Below, piece by piece: positions 45,333 through 54,323 of a DNA stretch of 64,000 nt; the stretch's first letter is position 1; each line of letters starts with the position of its first letter. This stretch comes from Planctomycetia bacterium (lineage in GTDB: Bacteria; Planctomycetota; Phycisphaerae; UBA1845; Fen-1342). The stretch spans positions 2,416,616 through 2,480,615 of the forward strand of contig CP054190.1 in the NCBI GenBank assembly GCA_015709575.1, in the 5' to 3' direction. The notes beneath the pieces are model-generated. The model saw only the letters and a list, made by a program, of their open reading frames with translations. It searched no databases and had not been told where the DNA came from. The position numbers were made by a program, and so were the translations under genes.

Positions 45333-47705
45333 TCAGTTGAGAAGGCGGGCGACGAAGTCGTCGATGTCGAAATTGTCGAAGTGCCCGTCGCCGTCCACGT
45401 CGCCGGCCATCGGATTGCACAGCGGATACGCCTGCGAATACGCGACGGCGTCGACCAGCGCCAGTACGAATGCGTCAATATCAAAGTTGTTGACCGCCCC
45501 GTCGCAATTCAAGTCGCCCGGAATCACCGGCTGCGTCACGATGAACTCGATGACCGCGGACCCACCGGGCAGGCCGTCGCCGCTCGGCAGCGCGGCCGGA
45601 TTCAGCGGGTCGGCGATCTCGCCGTCGAGCGACTGCGACGACGCCGCGTCGGTGACACTGTCCCACACGGTGAGACGGTAGCGATCCGGGCGAAGCGCAT
45701 CTCCCGGCGTGAGCACCGCTTGATGCTCGATCGCGTTGTAGGCCACTACGATCGGCACTTCACCGCTGAGCTCGGCCTCGAGTGAAAAGTCGAATGCACT
45801 GACGCTGACCGGCTTGTGAAAACTGACCGTGACCCGATCCACCGCGGCATTGCGCTCGCCCGGCTCCGGCGTCGTCGCGATGATCTTAGGCGGACCCTCG
45901 ACAAACGGCGTCTCCTGCTTGCTGACGATCAGCACCCAATCCTTCGGGTCCAGCGCCAGCCCCAGCGGCGGGGCGGGCTGCGGCAGCAGGTAGTGCTGCG
46001 CGCGGGCGCTGTTCCACACCGGCGTGGTCGTGGACTGCGTCTCCGATGTCGCAATCAGCACGTCCACAGGCATGGTGAAGGTGGGCCAGTTGACGTTCTG
46101 GATCTGCGTGAGATACAGCTCCACGTAGGATTTTTGCCCGAGCGTCAGAGAGCGCCAAGCGTAGCGATACTCCGGCGCGCCGACCTGGTACAGCCAAGGG
46201 TCGAAAAACCAGTCCAGCGGCTCGCCGTGCACGGCCTCGGCAACCGCGACGAACTGGGCCGTCGTGGCGGTCCCGTCCTCGTACTCGGCCCGAAAGGCCG
46301 CCAGGATATCGAAAAACTTCGCGCTGCCCACCACGCGGCGCAGCATGTGAAACACCCATCCCGCCTTCCGATAGGAGAAATCGGAGGAAAAAATCCGGTT
46401 CACCGTGGTCGGATTCGGAATGTACACCGTGCCATTGACGCTGCTCGGCCGGCGATTGTTCATCGTGGCCTGCAGCGCCGACGGGCCGCCGCCGGGCTTG
46501 AACTCCTGCCACAGCGCTTCGCAGTAGGTCGCCATTCCCTCCTGAAGCCAGATGTCGCTCCAGGTGGCGCAGGTGATCATGTTTCCCCACCACTGGTGCC
46601 CCACTTCGTGGGCGGTGATCGACTCCGAAAATACCCCCTGCCCGGTCATGGTCTGATGCTCCATGCCGCCGGAAAAACCGAACTGGTAGATCCCGTATTT
46701 TTCGTTGATGAACGGGTATGGGCCAAAGATGTTCCCGAAGGCCGCGAGCATCTCCGCAGTCTGAAAGCAGCGGTTTCGGTTGCTGGTCGTATTCGAGTCG
46801 GGGTAGAGGAAGAACTGCATCGGCATCGACCCGCCGGCATGATTGAAGGTCGAGCCGAAGCGGACGTAGTTCGCGCCGCCCATCGAAAAGAGATAGGGCG
46901 TCGTCTGGTAAGCTGTCTCCCAGCGATAGCGCTTCTGGCCACTGGGAAGGGTCACTTCCTCCGTCAGCAGCCCATTGGAGGCCACCGAGTAATTCCCCGG
47001 AACCGTGAAGATCAGCGTCCCGGTCGCCTTATCGTTGTTGTCATCCTTCTGCGGCCACCAGGTATACGCAAACCACGGTTCGCTGAGCGTGTAGAACACG
47101 CGCACCGACGGAAAGCCGCGATTTTGAAACACGATGGAGTTCAGCCCCAGCGAGGTCGGCACGCCTTCGTACGCCACCGACAGGTCGAATCGCGCCGCGG
47201 CTGGTCGCGGCGGATCGAGCGTGACGCGCACGTGAATCGGGTCCATCCGTTGCCAGGTCGCCTCGACGCCATCCACCGTCAGCGACGAAATCAGAAAAGT
47301 GTCCGCGAGGCGGAATTCGAAGCGGTCCAGCGACGCCGCGACGACGTCCACCTCCATCGTGCAGGTGCCCGCGAGATGGTCGAGCGCCGGTGTTACCGTC
47401 AGGTCGAGCGTGTAGTGCTGTACGTCCGTGTCCGACAATGAAGAACCGGCCAGCCCGCCCTCGATGACCGGAGCGCCAGCCAGGTCCGCCGCAGCCCGCA
47501 GCTTTGCCGCCGCGCACAGATCACAACCGGCCGGGTCGTGCTCGTGCAGCGCCTCGACTCGAACCGACGACACGGCCGCTCGCTCGTTCGGCAAGCGATC
47601 GGGCACGGGCATCATCGGCGGCGAGGCCCACGCCGTCACGCCCAGCGCGATTGCCGTACCGACGGTAAACCCGCGCGAAACACGACGAAGCGACTGGATG
47701 ACCAT
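45333..47705 (-). CDS. Secreted M1 family metallopeptidase with C-terminal dockerin-like domain
   Basis: 790 residues. Signal peptide after ATG 47705 (SRGFTVGTAIALGVTAWA), N-terminal beta domain, then a gluzincin domain with a GGMEHQTMT exopeptidase-type motif and HEVGHQWWGN near residue 366, with the third ligand in WLQEGMATYCE 18 residues on. A bacterial Ig-like region follows (SVSAFDFSLEAELSGE). The last 60 residues hold two calcium-type loops, GDLNCDGAVNNFDIDAFVLAL and AGDVDGDGHFDNFDIDDF, a type I dockerin pattern typical of Phycisphaerae. It should trim peptides outside the cell. Confidence 0.9.
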   Translation of the reverse strand: MVIQSLRRVSRGFTVGTAIALGVTAWASPPMMPVPDRLPNERAAVSSVRVEALHEHDPAGCDLCAAAKLRAAADLAGAPVIEGGLAGSSLSDTDVQHYTLDLTVTPALDHLAGTCTMEVDVVAASLDRFEFRLADTFLISSLTVDGVEATWQRMDPIHVRVTLDPPRPAAARFDLSVAYEGVPTSLGLNSIVFQNRGFPSVRVFYTLSEPWFAYTWWPQKDDNNDKATGTLIFTVPGNYSVASNGLLTEEVTLPSGQKRYRWETAYQTTPYLFSMGGANYVRFGSTFNHAGGSMPMQFFLYPDSNTTSNRNRCFQTAEMLAAFGNIFGPYPFINEKYGIYQFGFSGGMEHQTMTGQGVFSESITAHEVGHQWWGNMITCATWSDIWLQEGMATYCEALWQEFKPGGGPSALQATMNNRRPSSVNGTVYIPNPTTVNRIFSSDFSYRKAGWVFHMLRRVVGSAKFFDILAAFRAEYEDGTATTAQFVAVAEAVHGEPLDWFFDPWLYQVGAPEYRYAWRSLTLGQKSYVELYLTQIQNVNWPTFTMPVDVLIATSETQSTTTPVWNSARAQHYLLPQPAPPLGLALDPKDWVLIVSKQETPFVEGPPKIIATTPEPGERNAAVDRVTVSFHKPVSVSAFDFSLEAELSGEVPIVVAYNAIEHQAVLTPGDALRPDRYRLTVWDSVTDAASSQSLDGEIADPLNPAALPSGDGLPGGSAVIEFIVTQPVIPGDLNCDGAVNNFDIDAFVLALVDAVAYSQAYPLCNPMAGDVDGDGHFDNFDIDDFVARLLN

Positions 47706-47838
47706 CGCACGCACCTGGGTGCTGAGGTTCAGGTCCGTCGCCAGCGCTGCGACGGATAACGCGGCCCGCACCCCCTGGCCCGCGCACGGAGCGCGGGACG
47801 GGGCATTACGGCTACCAGGCATTGTAGCGACGGCGGCG

Positions 47839-49008
47839 TCATGACCGCAGCGCAAACTCCGCCAGAATCGCGGTGCCGAGCGGCAACATGCGCTCATCCA
47901 CGTCAAATTGCGGGTGATGGTGCGGAAACACCCTGGCAGGATCGGGCACCGCCGCACCCAGGAACACGAACGCCGCCGGAGCCTTCGCCCCGTAATAAGC
48001 GAAGTCCTCGCCTCCGCCCTGGAGCGGCAGTTCCTGACAGGCTGCCTCCGGGACTCCCGCGGCGCGCGCTGCGCTCATGGCCCGATCGAACGCACCGGGA
48101 TCGTTCACGAGCACCGGATATCCAGGAGAAATGGTGACTTCGGCAGTCGCGCCGTGCGCTTGGGCCACCGATCGGCAAAGCTCGGTGACGCGCTCGATCA
48201 CCCGTGATCGAACCCCCTCATCGAAGGTGCGGATGGTTCCGCGCAGACGGACTTCATTCGGAATGACATTGTCCGCGCTGCCGGCGTTGATCTGCGTGAC
48301 GCTCACGACGGCGTTCTCGTGCATGCCGACGTTGCGGCTCACCACCGATTGCAGCGACAGCACCATGGCCGAGGCGGTGACGATCGGATCGACGCAGCTC
48401 TCGGGCATGGCGGCGTGCCCGCCGCGCCCGATGACACGCACGTCGAGCGTGTTTACCGCCGCCATGAACGGCCCGCTGCGCCCGCCGACCACCCCGGCCG
48501 GGAGCACCGAGATGATGTGCAGTCCGAAGACGGCCTCCACGCCGTCGAGCGCGCCGCCGTTGATCAGCTGCGGTGCGCCGCCGGGATACAGCTCTTCGCT
48601 GGGCTGGAACAGAAATCGCACGGGCCGCTTCAATTCGGCGCGCCGCTCCGCGAGCAGGCGCGCCGCGCCCAGCAGCATCGCCGTGTGCGCGTCATGGCCG
48701 CAGGCGTGCATGACGCCGGGGTTGCGCGAGGCGAACGGCAACCCCGTGGACTCCGCGATTGGAAGCGCGTCCATGTCCGCCCGCAACGCGACGGCGGGGC
48801 CGCTGCCGGCGGTCAACTCCGCCACGACGCCGTATCCGCCGCCGACGTTCTCTTGTGGCGCGTATCCCATGTCGCGCAGCGCGCCGGCGACAAATGCGGC
48901 GGTCTGCCGCTCCTGCCCACTCAACTCGGGGTTGGCGTGCAGGTGTCGCCTCCACCCGATGAGCGCCTCGGAGATTGACTGTGCGCGTTGCAGCGTGGTT
49001 TCCGGCAT
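47839..49008 (-). CDS. M20D family amidohydrolase
   Basis: 389 residues, cytoplasmic. M20D motifs: LHANPELSGQE, ALRADMDALPI, the metal-binding HACGHDAHTAM, FQPSEELYPGGA, and GGEDFAYYGAKAPAAFVFLG near the C-terminus. Members hydrolyse N-acyl amino acids, indole-amino-acid conjugates or p-aminobenzoyl-glutamate. The AbgT transporter lies 1.8 kb away, making aminobenzoyl-glutamate or related dipeptide use a reasonable guess. GGAAGG precedes the ATG by six bases. It sits 133 bases downstream of nothing on its own strand; the M1 gene follows. Confidence 0.92.
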   Translation of the reverse strand: MPETTLQRAQSISEALIGWRRHLHANPELSGQERQTAAFVAGALRDMGYAPQENVGGGYGVVAELTAGSGPAVALRADMDALPIAESTGLPFASRNPGVMHACGHDAHTAMLLGAARLLAERRAELKRPVRFLFQPSEELYPGGAPQLINGGALDGVEAVFGLHIISVLPAGVVGGRSGPFMAAVNTLDVRVIGRGGHAAMPESCVDPIVTASAMVLSLQSVVSRNVGMHENAVVSVTQINAGSADNVIPNEVRLRGTIRTFDEGVRSRVIERVTELCRSVAQAHGATAEVTISPGYPVLVNDPGAFDRAMSAARAAGVPEAACQELPLQGGGEDFAYYGAKAPAAFVFLGAAVPDPARVFPHHHPQFDVDERMLPLGTAILAEFALRS

Positions 49009-49149: not shown

Positions 49150-49896
49150 ATGTGGCTTTTTGGTTCCAGTTGCGACCGTTTTCACGTCGCTTCGCGGCTG
49201 GCGTTCAAGCTTGAGCTTGAGCCGTCGCGCGAATCGCTGCTGCACTTTTTCGAGGTGGTGCGCCGCGCCTTTCCGTCGCTGACGCGCTTCCGCCGCCGGC
49301 CCGAGGGCGGCGTGCTGCTGGAAGAGGAAGGGGATGACGATCCGCGGCGGCAGGTGCGCGTCGACAGCAGCGCCGTGAAGCTGCTGCATGGCTCGGCGGA
49401 ATCCGAGGAGGCGGTGGCGACATTAGGGCGGGTGGTCTTTACGCAAGCGCCCTACGACCTGAGCCTCTCCGACCTCGATTACGACTACATGGAGGTCTCG
49501 CTCCATCTGGAGCTGGACTATCGCGGCAACCACGACGAGCTGGTCGCCGAAACATTGCTGGCCACGGATCCGCTCTCGGCGGCGGTCGCGCCGGCCGGTC
49601 GCCACATCATCGACTGCCAGCCGGTCATCGGCATCGCGCTCTCGGAAGACTGCGGCACTCAAGCATACGTGGAGATTCGCAGCCGCACGTCGGCCGTTGA
49701 AGTGCGCACCGGGGAATATGACACTTCGCCGATCAGTATCAGCGTCACCGTGCGGCGCTACTGGAGCACGCCGCCGGGGGCGGACCTGGTGCGCGTTCAC
49801 GACGAACTGGTGCGCTCCGTGGCCGAACTCGCCAGTCAGCGAGTGGTGCCGCTGATCGTTCAGCCGCTGGCCGCCGCCATCGCCAGCCGCCGCTGA
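49150..49896 (+). CDS. Hypothetical protein
   Basis: 248 residues, no signal peptide or membrane segment. ATG 49150 after GGAG; a longer in-frame form from 48988 overlaps the M20D gene region and is Arg/Gly-rich, so it is rejected. The protein opens MWLFGSSCDRFHVASRLAFK, with a central EVSLHLELDYRGNHDELV and a C-terminal helix. It looks like a two-domain alpha/beta protein. No family recognised. It is followed 22 bases later by the CpeT-family gene on the same strand, and TATCAT at 49101-49106 is a possible -10 box. Confidence 0.65.
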   Translation: MWLFGSSCDRFHVASRLAFKLELEPSRESLLHFFEVVRRAFPSLTRFRRRPEGGVLLEEEGDDDPRRQVRVDSSAVKLLHGSAESEEAVATLGRVVFTQAPYDLSLSDLDYDYMEVSLHLELDYRGNHDELVAETLLATDPLSAAVAPAGRHIIDCQPVIGIALSEDCGTQAYVEIRSRTSAVEVRTGEYDTSPISISVTVRRYWSTPPGADLVRVHDELVRSVAELASQRVVPLIVQPLAAAIASRR

Positions 49897-49918
49897 AGCC
49901 CATTCCGGAGGAGATCGC

Positions 49919-50611
49919 TTGCCACTCCGTAAACGTGATCGCAGATTCCCCCGCCCGTCTGCGTGGCTGATCGTCGGCGCCCTGCTCTCCACGATGTGTG
50001 CCGGATGCGGGGCGCCGCGCAGCGGCAGCTCCGAGCGCGCGGCCGCGGGCGACCTGGACGTGCTGACCCAGTGGCTGGTCGGCTCGTTCAGCAGCGCGGC
50101 GCAGGCGGCGCGAGATTCGGACTATCGCGACATCCGGCTGCATCACGTGCGTATCTGGCCGGAGCGCGACGACGGCGTCTGGCTCTACGTCGAACAGGCC
50201 ACGGCCGAGACGCCGGAGCGCCCCTACCGGCAGCGCGTGTATCGCCTCGCCCGAACGCGCGACGGCCTTGTCAGCGAAGTGTTCGAGCTTCCGGGAGAGC
50301 CGGCGGACGTGTTGCGCCGCGCCGGCGCGTGGCGCGAGGCGCGCCCGCTGGCGGACCTGGATCCCTCACAACTGGAGCCTCGCTCCGGCTGCACCATGTA
50401 CATTCATCGCCGCCCCGACGGCGCATTTTCCGGTGGGACGCGCGGCAGCGGTTGCGCCAGCACGCTGCGCGGAGCCGCGTACGCCGTCTCCGACCTGATC
50501 GAGTTGACCGCCGACGGGCTGGTGACCTGGGACCGCGGCTACGACGCCGACGGGCGGCAGGTCTGGGGAGCGGAGCGCGGGGGATATGAGTTCCGGCGGA
50601 TCACGCCATGA
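49919..50611 (+). CDS. CpcT/CpeT-family lipoprotein
   Basis: 230 residues. TTG start set by GGAGG seven bases upstream. Lipoprotein signal with lipobox MCAGC, then the CpeT fold: WLVGSFSSAAQAARDS, IRLHHVRIW, WLYVEQATAETPERPYRQRV, SGCTMYIHRR, STLRGAAYAVSDLIEL and the ending TWDRGYDADGRQVWGAERGG. CpcT/CpeT proteins of cyanobacteria attach bilins to phycobiliproteins. No phycobiliprotein or bilin genes are present, and homologues are known in non-phototrophs, so another ligand or role is likely. The conserved Arg and Tyr pairs in PYRQRVYRL are intact. Its stop overlaps the 49-residue peptide gene. Confidence 0.88.
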   Translation: MPLRKRDRRFPRPSAWLIVGALLSTMCAGCGAPRSGSSERAAAGDLDVLTQWLVGSFSSAAQAARDSDYRDIRLHHVRIWPERDDGVWLYVEQATAETPERPYRQRVYRLARTRDGLVSEVFELPGEPADVLRRAGAWREARPLADLDPSQLEPRSGCTMYIHRRPDGAFSGGTRGSGCASTLRGAAYAVSDLIELTADGLVTWDRGYDADGRQVWGAERGGYEFRRITP

Positions 50612-50757
50612 ACCCGCGGCGATCGATCCCGGGGCGCTGGGTGGTGCTGGCGCTGCTGGCGAGCCTGATCGTGATCTGCACCGCGATGTATTTTTACGTC
50701 TCCGCGCACGGCTACCGATTCCGCGGATTGGGCGGACCGCCGCCTGCAGCGCGCTGA
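50608..50757 (+). CDS. 49-residue single-pass membrane peptide
   Basis: Short gene not longer than 150 bases: ATG 50608 overlaps the CpeT-family TGA by four bases (ATGA), stop at 50757. The peptide starts MNPRRSIPGR, has one helix (WVVLALLASLIVICTAMYFYV, residues 11-31) and ends in a Gly/Pro/Ala-rich tail. The basic N-terminus suggests an N-in orientation. The start overlap shows translational coupling to the CpeT lipoprotein. Function unknown; it may hold or assist the lipoprotein. The overlap and helix are the evidence. Confidence 0.62.
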   Translation: MNPRRSIPGRWVVLALLASLIVICTAMYFYVSAHGYRFRGLGGPPPAAR

Positions 50758-52401: not shown

Positions 52402-52619
52402 GGTCGGCTCCGGTGCGCAGCTCGCGCGGGTGCGGATGGTACCCGCAGCCGGCCGACCTTCGCAGCGTCCAGAGCACGGTAAGCCCCGATCCTCCGGTGC
52501 GCCGTCGATCCGGTGCCGGACCACGCCGCATGGCAATTTCGCGCGGAAGTCCGGGCGGCATCCGTTACCATGTCCCCAGAGGGATGACCCCCACCGCGAG
52601 CCTTCCCGGGAGCACCGTC

Positions 52620-54323
52620 ATGCTGAGTTCACGATCGAACCCGTTCCGCAACTTCCGCGCCCCCGCTGGCACTCTTCTCCCCGCGCGCTCAGCCGCTGCT
52701 CGGCTTCCGCGCGCCGTCTTCGTACTGCCGCTGCTGGCGGTGTCGCTGGCACTTCCCACCGTGGTGGCCGAGTACCCGACGGACGTCGCCGTGAACCTCG
52801 CGGTTTCGGACGATGCATTGGAGCAGACGCAGTCCAAGGTCCGCGCGACCGCCGACGGCGGCTGCTACATTTCCTGGTACTCCAACGCGCTGGGCGGCTA
52901 CGACATGTATCTCCAGCGGCTCAAACGCAACGGCGTGCCGCAGTGGGCCGACAATGGCCTGCGGATCGCCGACCTAGCGCACACCAGCACGCAGGACTAC
53001 GGCATTGCGGTCGATTCCGGCGGCCACGCGCTGCTGACCTATCGCGACGACCGTCCCGGCACGTCACAGGTGGGCGTCAATCGCATCGCGCCGGACGGCA
53101 CACTGCTGTGGGGTGCCGGCGGCGTGGTGCTGCCCGGCTCGCTCAACGGCAACCGCCCGATCGTCTCGGTCCTCGACGACGACACCGTCGTTGTCGGCTA
53201 CACCGCCGCAACCACCCCCGCCACCATCGTGCTGCACCGCCTCGACAGCGACGGCACGCTGCTGTGGGGCGCCGGCGGCATCGTGATCGCTGACCCCGCA
53301 GCGCCCACCAGCCGTCCGCTGCAGCTCTCGGATCTCCAGCCGGGCGTCGGCACCACCGTTATCGCTCTGTGGGTGCGCTGCACCGGTGCGAACTGCGTCA
53401 CCAGCAACAAGCACCTCTACGCCCAGATGTTCGACGAAACCGGCGGCGCAAGTTGGAACTCCGGCGTGCCGGTCGAGGTCTTTACCGCCAACTCCATCCA
53501 GACCGCCTATTTCCCGACCTTTATCAGCGACGGCGCCGGCGGCGCTGTGATCCCCTTCTACGAAAACGGCGGCACGCGCCGCGTCCGCGTGCAGCACTTC
53601 GAGGCCGACGGCACACCGCTCTATCCCACCAACGGCATCGAGGCCTCGCTGCAGGAGAGCGGTAAGATAGCGCTCTCGCCCAGCGGCATTCACGACCCCG
53701 CCAGCGGCGACACCTATGTCGCCTGGACCGAGGCGAACTCCGGGCAGTCGCAATGGGGCGTCTTCGCCCAGCGGCTCTCCGGCGGGGCGCGGCAATGGGG
53801 CAACGGCGGCCTCGAGGTGGTCGGCCTGAGCGGCAATCAAAGCTCGTTCGTACGGGTCGTGCCCGGTCGCAGCGGGGGCATGGCGACCTTCTGGATTGAT
53901 CGCTCCGGCAGCGCCAAAATCATTGGGGCGGCGCTCGATGAGAGCGGCACGCTGATCTGGTCGCCGGCCGTGCAGGACTATTGCTCGACGCTATCGGGCA
54001 AGGCGCGGCTGGACGCGGCGGCGGCCTGGCCGGGACAGGCGCTGCTGACCTGGGGCGACTCGCGCTTCGACTTTCGCGACGCCTACGCCCAAAACGCCCG
54101 GCTGTGCGACGGCCGCCCCGGCGCGCTGAACCTGGGCGATCTGAACTGCGATGGTTTACTCAACAATTTTGACATTGATCCGTTCGTGCTGGCGATCCTC
54201 GACGGCGCGGCGTACAGCGCCGCTTACCCCGGCTGCGACCGCGAGCGGGCCGACATCAACGCCGATTGCGCCGTGAACAATTTTGACATCGACCCCTTCG
54301 TGGCGCTGCTGCTGGGGCAATAG
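52620..54323 (+). CDS. Secreted repeat protein with C-terminal dockerin-like domain
   Basis: 567 residues from ATG 52620 (GGGAG seven bases upstream; ATG 52584 is also possible). Signal peptide VFVLPLLAVSLALPTVVA. The body consists of repeats of about 50-60 residues with a fixed phrase such as DGTLLWGAGGVVLPG and DGTLLWGAGGIVIA, and also W.NGGL, suggesting a propeller-like surface protein. The last 60 residues hold two calcium-type loops, LGDLNCDGLLNNFDIDPFV and RADINADCAVNNFDIDPFV, as in the M1 peptidase. No enzyme motif. Probably an extracellular binding or structural protein. Confidence 0.82.
   Translation: MLSSRSNPFRNFRAPAGTLLPARSAAARLPRAVFVLPLLAVSLALPTVVAEYPTDVAVNLAVSDDALEQTQSKVRATADGGCYISWYSNALGGYDMYLQRLKRNGVPQWADNGLRIADLAHTSTQDYGIAVDSGGHALLTYRDDRPGTSQVGVNRIAPDGTLLWGAGGVVLPGSLNGNRPIVSVLDDDTVVVGYTAATTPATIVLHRLDSDGTLLWGAGGIVIADPAAPTSRPLQLSDLQPGVGTTVIALWVRCTGANCVTSNKHLYAQMFDETGGASWNSGVPVEVFTANSIQTAYFPTFISDGAGGAVIPFYENGGTRRVRVQHFEADGTPLYPTNGIEASLQESGKIALSPSGIHDPASGDTYVAWTEANSGQSQWGVFAQRLSGGARQWGNGGLEVVGLSGNQSSFVRVVPGRSGGMATFWIDRSGSAKIIGAALDESGTLIWSPAVQDYCSTLSGKARLDAAAAWPGQALLTWGDSRFDFRDAYAQNARLCDGRPGALNLGDLNCDGLLNNFDIDPFVLAILDGAAYSAAYPGCDRERADINADCAVNNFDIDPFVALLLGQ

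Follow-up and report, generated by a model that had tools for sequence, protein, structure and literature searches.

Genomic context of the CpeT gene

The window, the whole 64 000-nucleotide stretch of DNA analysed here, occupies positions 2,416,616–2,480,615 of a planctomycete genome of 3.9 Mb assembled as one contig, in which the CpeT gene was found in a single copy. This gene (49919–50611, forward strand) encodes an exported protein of 230 amino acids of the CpeT/CpcT family (PF06206). It starts with TTG, and a Shine–Dalgarno-like motif GGAGGAG (49907–49913) lies 5 nt upstream of the start codon. Immediately downstream is an open reading frame of 49 codons (50608–50757, forward strand) with an ATG start, predicted to encode a one-helix peptide and apparently an orphan. 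The two frames overlap by ATGA at the CpeT stop codon, exactly as the earlier note on this DNA had described the pair. An AbgT transporter gene is encoded on the opposite strand and is convergent with the pair.

The upstream open reading frame (49150–49896, forward strand; 248 amino acids) has no Pfam family and stops 22 nt before the CpeT start, and the two genes may therefore be co-transcribed. Matches to its product were found in 41 of the 61 related genomes (the window's own genome included), most of which have no CpeT gene. The gene for this 248-residue protein often adjoins a divergent M20 peptidase gene, and the protein is a candidate for an unnamed family of this group. Two other proteins of the window (45333–47957 and 52413–54323) carry dockerin-like repeats (DLNCDG..NNFDID) at the C-terminus, which we take to be typical of the phylum.

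Family assignment, export signal and predicted fold

The window protein matches PF06206 (CpeT/CpcT, DUF1001) from position 2 to 181 of 181, with an E-value of 2.1e-46 and a score of 158.5 bits against a curated cut-off of 21. The family is matched end to end, which bears out the suggestion that the core of the bilin-lyase family is intact in this protein. The CpeT domain, a predicted barrel, comprises residues 49–230 (50063–50608). Across 39 aligned exported homologues, the invariant residues are Gly26, Tyr61, Glu63, Gly128, Cys129, Gly143, Cys150, Gly178 and Gly188 (mature numbering), including the YxE motif and two cysteines; the motifs PYRQR and WDR, together with Gln185 and Trp187 of a QxW motif, are near-invariant. 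There is no histidine among the invariant or near-invariant columns of these 39 sequences.

The signal sequence (49919–50005) ends in MCAGC, a probable but poor lipobox (MCAG|C, cysteine codon 50006–50008). It fails a strict PROSITE-type pattern, owing to the cysteine at position −3, and passes a looser one. Among the 49 CpeT loci, 27 satisfy the strict pattern and 31 satisfy either pattern; several gammaproteobacterial members have signal-like starts with no obvious lipobox. As judged from these sequences, export is common in the CpeT set, and the relatives make a lipid anchor on the window protein likely. The protein had been called lipid-anchored in the earlier note, and this description stands on the looser pattern and not on the strict one.

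The mature protein was modelled with a pLDDT of 95.5, and in this model it has a barrel of the CpcT and CRUMPLED LEAF (CRL) type. The best fold matches are CpcT (4o4o, Z 23.0 over 184 residues), CpcT with phycocyanobilin (4o4s, Z 22.9), CRL of plants (Z 22.2) and a phage CpeT (5hi8, Z 17.3), and all later matches have Z below 10. Among these weaker matches are heme nitrobindins at Z about 9, a haemophore of Riemerella (8xjc) at Z 8.5 and, near the stated background of the tool, fatty-acid and bile-acid binding proteins at Z 6–7. No Bam lipoprotein is among the matches listed in the fold comparison, an absence that is uninformative.

The 49-residue peptide

The peptide has one strong hydrophobic helix; its codon score is +15 bits and its GC3 (0.84) equals that of the CpeT gene. 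A sample of 194 gene ends of the window genome was taken from the window and 11 further stretches of 20 kb. Open reading frames of 40–90 amino acids with an ATGA overlap occur at 11 of them, and only the peptide reaches a 17-residue mean hydropathy of at least 2.0 within −40 to +60 nt. By these sequence measures, the reading frame is more than a chance occurrence.

The earlier note proposed that CpeT and the peptide form a pair. The peptide survey covered 48 CpeT loci including the window, that is, the 49 loci minus L038, which has too little downstream sequence; L065 had been left out beforehand as a duplicate of L037, and L111–L118 lay outside the survey. An overlapping one-helix peptide is present at none of the 47 other loci and at none of 19 gammaproteobacterial CpeT loci (19 of 26 non-query matches; L178 was left out). 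It is also missing from four genomes of the same family (L046–L049), whose CpeT domains are 46–59 per cent identical to that of the window. No other CpeT gene examined thus has the peptide next to it. The note itself had named this outcome as contrary to its proposal, and by that measure the idea of a general, conserved unit is refuted.

Besides the window, only two of the 48 loci have any hydrophobic short reading frame, and neither resembles the peptide: L044 has one of 59 amino acids at −1 with a hydropathy of 1.65, and L072 has one at +137 with a negative codon score. Among the gammaproteobacterial loci, five of the 19 have some hydrophobic short frame between −40 and +150 nt, none of them at an ATGA overlap; the nearest before the CpeT stop is in L174 (37 amino acids, at −11). 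In searches with the peptide, 38 of 61 genomes gave matches at E-values up to 10, all of them weak except the window itself, and there was no convincing homologue in the 60 other related genomes. The two strongest of these, with E-values of 0.002 and 0.003, fall on the first helix of a 130-residue membrane protein adjoining dnaJ, and we take them for likeness between helices. We also rejected the idea that the peptide is a relic of the operon of the upstream gene: at the nine loci viewed with orthologues of that gene, it is followed neither by such a peptide nor by a CpeT gene.

The peptide thus looks lineage-specific and, as far as its sequence was traced, private to this genome. It would be a membrane peptide whose translation is coupled to that of CpeT and which has no conserved share in the role of CpeT. 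A dedicated two-part membrane complex of CpeT and the peptide appears very improbable to us: the ATGA overlap, the coding-like codon use and the singularity of the case among 194 gene ends speak for it, but the absence of the peptide from 47 + 19 other CpeT loci, including the four same-family members, argues against it, as does the best match in 60 other genomes being, at E 0.002, the membrane protein next to dnaJ.

Distribution and neighbourhood of CpeT genes

CpeT genes are present in six of 41 relatives, in 35 of the 392 genomes of a phylum sample and in 27 of 197 genomes of the order of a Glaciecola genome. This distribution is patchy, which would be odd for a core assembly factor. The PF06206 proteins of the exported branch (see below) come from non-phototrophic Planctomycetota, Bacteroidota, Balneolota, Pseudomonadota and Zixiibacteriota. 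One Rhodospirillaceae genome has a second, divergent CpeT gene (L118; G455:C132:2556–3035) in addition to a typical one.

Clustering of 416 neighbouring proteins of the 49 CpeT loci revealed no specific gene that recurs beside CpeT throughout the branch; the clusters with the widest spread consist of what we take to be response regulators, protein kinases and ABC ATPases. No Bam, Omp85 or Lol gene was recognised beside CpeT among the neighbours examined by eye and by clustering. Some associations are local. At five loci of family f15 (L063, 2488–5199; L060, L061, L074 and L076), CpeT lies beside or near a gene of the PEP-mutase/isocitrate-lyase family; in some of them, CpeT is flanked on its opposite side by citrate synthase. 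In genus g86, a CpeT neighbour encodes a protein of 607 amino acids, presumably GlmS.

Six genomes of the phylum (family f9; L075 and L078–L082) encode a divergent CpeT domain (PF06206 E-values from 5e-6 to 4e-13) followed by an FKBP domain. The five full-length frames start with a signal-like sequence, and L082 was entered from the domain start. In a model of the L079 fusion with a moderate pLDDT of 69, one part resembles CpcT and CRL and the other resembles Escherichia coli FkpA and Mip-type isomerases. These genes are flanked in several loci by what are presumably malate dehydrogenase and DnaJ genes. Such fusions are the only hint of function that gene fusion provides here, and what they suggest is a part in protein folding in the envelope.

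Relation to the T-type bilin lyases

Phycobiliproteins (PF00502) and ferredoxin-dependent bilin reductases (PF05996) were found in none of the 40 CpeT-bearing genomes, whereas the Synechococcus control was positive for both. The window had been described as having no bilin or phycobiliprotein gene nearby; this extends to the whole genome for these two families, and a heme oxygenase is encoded elsewhere. The organism had likewise been called a non-phototroph, a label that agrees with the absence of phycobiliprotein and bilin-reductase genes and is judged here through those pigment genes only. The three cyanobacterial CpeT genes viewed, by contrast, lie inside phycobilisome gene clusters.

In an unrooted tree of 47 rows, six lyases (three cyanobacterial plasmid CpeTs, Nostoc CpcT and two phage CpeTs) are split from the 41 others, including CRL, with 100/100 support. 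The six FKBP fusions, one partial sequence, one odd-ended sequence, two near-copies and one duplicate were left out of this tree. A lyase would be expected to have no export signal, and the window protein has a signal-like sequence and a loose lipobox. The family match, the predicted fold and the two cysteines common with cyanobacterial CpcT/CpeT would agree with a true T-type bilin lyase. With neither phycobiliprotein nor bilin-reductase genes in any of the 40 CpeT-bearing genomes, however, the protein is unlikely to act as a lyase; export and the position outside the lyase branch also speak against such a role, and we give it almost no credence. The earlier note had supposed that the protein could reveal an ancestral, non-pigment role of the family. 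Its non-pigment part is borne out in some measure by the branch split, the missing pigment genes and the likeness to CRL; the word ancestral finds no footing in an unrooted tree.

Similarity to plant CRUMPLED LEAF

The best sequence match of the window protein in the PDB is CRL (6lix, 4e-16), ahead of CpcT (4o4o, 4e-12). CRL scores 77–105 bits with profiles built from four members of the exported branch, versus 34 bits with a profile of four cyanobacterial lyases. The exported profiles were 40 random four-member draws, equal in depth to the lyase profile and with four long-branched rows left out, and CRL scored above the lyase profile in 40 of 40. In BLASTP, CRL gives 73 bits to the window protein and 27–45 to the lyases. 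Thr145, Ala157, Trp175 and Tyr194 are found in CRL and in the exported set and not in the lyases, these positions having been picked for their conservation in the exported set. In the tree, CRL falls on the exported side, where it has the longest branch (3.35). Constraining it to group with the lyases lowers the likelihood by only 1.6 log units, and the AU test does not reject this arrangement (p 0.317). The similarity to the exported branch is clear; a placement of CRL as sister of that branch was considered and is not secured. By sequence, CRL is the nearest studied relative of the exported non-lyase branch.

CRL is described as a signal-anchored protein of the outer envelope (PMC10542568, PMC8836251). 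It interacts with the Omp85 insertase Oep80, whose complex shrinks from about 200 to 160 kDa when CRL is lost, and the passage that reports this calls a direct involvement of CRL in folding unclear (PMC12373785). Its role is tabled as 'OEP80 insertion' in one paper (PMC10542568), and the plant homologues are listed in another as DUF1001 proteins with an apparently different function (PMC2408579). CRL is not termed a pigment-attaching enzyme in the available passages of these papers.

Heme oxygenase

The heme oxygenase gene of the window genome (G000:C1:1772144–1772713; L119, 6094–6726) lies about 0.69 Mb from CpeT; this genome thus has a heme oxygenase without a bilin reductase. Among the relatives, heme oxygenase is present in five of six CpeT-bearing versus 11 of 35 CpeT-lacking genomes (Fisher p 0.026), and in the phylum sample, which includes clades of near relatives, in 12 of 35 versus 32 of 357. 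Within the family, the counts are 4/5 versus 7/20 (p 0.13), and in genomes at least 89 per cent complete 5/6 versus 10/23 (p 0.17). The genomes are non-independent by kinship, and the link is suggestive and not robust. No heme oxygenase match was found in 24 of 40 CpeT-bearing genomes, and none of the eight heme-oxygenase loci viewed has the gene beside CpeT. In one gammaproteobacterial genome (L174, 5066–6841), CpeT lies 111 nt 3′ of hemE (uroporphyrinogen decarboxylase) on the same strand. In genus g86, loci L125 and L126 contain a high-scoring heme oxygenase gene (E about 1e-75) that lies away from CpeT; two further genes on the same strand come after it.

Possible roles of the exported CpeT proteins

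We tentatively favour a reading in which the window protein is an exported barrel of the non-lyase branch that acts as an assembly factor of the envelope or outer membrane. The signal sequence would take the protein through Sec, and lipidation at Cys 30 would tether the barrel to the outer membrane, its probable anchoring site, on the inner face. There, as the outer membrane is being assembled, it might hold or steady either the Omp85/BamA machine or client proteins, a role modelled on that reported for CRL with Oep80 in plastids; both the contact with Omp85 and the client are proposed by analogy. The FkpA-like isomerase fused in some relatives would add proline isomerization at the same place. 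Several observations stand against this reading: the lack of a Bam, Omp85 or Lol neighbour, the patchy distribution, the weak lipobox of the window protein and the gammaproteobacterial members lacking an obvious one, the divergence of the FKBP-fused domains, the long CRL branch with its AU p of 0.317, the missing pair of cysteines in CRL and the passage calling the folding role of CRL unclear (PMC12373785).

Close behind comes the possibility that the exported barrel has kept the cup of the lyases and carries a tetrapyrrole or another lipophile; its site would be the periplasm or the surface, and its ligand heme, biliverdin or some other hydrophobic compound. Its closest ligand-bearing fold is CpcT with phycocyanobilin, and the haemophore and nitrobindins are among the weaker neighbours; the heme oxygenase of the window genome, its higher frequency in CpeT-bearing relatives and phylum genomes and the single hemE neighbour would fit as well. 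That association weakens within the family and in the fuller genomes, which are not independent of one another, the enzyme is missing from most CpeT-bearing genomes (24/40) and does not adjoin CpeT where viewed, and a conserved histidine ligand of heme is not seen, the exported set having no conserved histidine. It is unlikely, in our judgement, that the barrel instead has a lipid or a sugar-lipid of the cell envelope as ligand, or is a purely structural lipoprotein, unrelated to the role of CRL. In favour of this, the barrel resembles those of lipocalins and FABPs, its fold matches include fatty-acid and bile-acid binding proteins, and no conserved neighbourhood points to a pathway; those matches are near the background, however, and the polar motifs YxE, PYRQR and WDR are strongly conserved, although a generic lipid cup would not obviously need them.

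The assembly reading can be widened: exported CpeT/CRL-like barrels might be widespread, unrecognised outer-membrane assembly factors of bacteria, with the cyanobacterial lyases as a cytosolic offshoot of an envelope chaperone, CRL as the survivor of the original role in plastids and the FKBP fusions as one-piece chaperone–isomerases of the same pathway. This broader view is speculative, and we regard it as doubtful. PF06206 is named after pigment enzymes, so that by name its members would be chromophore lyases in organisms that lack the substrate. If the exported branch shares the role of CRL, a poorly understood protein of the plastid outer envelope would be linked to free-living bacteria, where the role could be tested by simple gene deletion, and an origin of the bilin lyases would be suggested. 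No description of exported CpeT proteins of non-phototrophs was found in the literature searched (on CpeT/CpcT outside phototrophs, CRL and FKBP fusions), a body that mostly excludes subscription papers.

Comparison with known systems

The haemophore of Riemerella anatipestifer (8xjc) and the nitrobindins have a similar barrel topology (Z 8.5–9.3) but only 4–10 per cent identity. A conserved heme-ligating histidine defines the nitrobindins, whereas the exported CpeT set has none. The CpcT/CpeT lyases (4o4o, 4o4s) and the cyanophage CpeT (5hi8) share the Pfam family and the barrel with the window protein, and the cyanobacterial CpcT/CpeT proteins share the conserved core and two cysteines with the exported set; the lyases nevertheless form a separate branch, and the window genome lacks both their substrate and the bilin reductase. 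Arabidopsis CRL (AT5G51020, 6lix), in the plastid outer envelope, has the CpcT/CpeT barrel in common with the window protein (Z 22.2 over 185 residues). It lacks Trp51, Trp59 and the pair of cysteines that never varies in the exported set, and it also differs in being a eukaryotic protein anchored in the membrane by a protein signal anchor and not by lipid (PMC10542568, PMC8836251). The PF06206 proteins of other non-phototrophic bacteria belong to the same exported branch and are 36–59 per cent identical to the window protein; unlike in the window, none examined has an adjoining 49-residue peptide.
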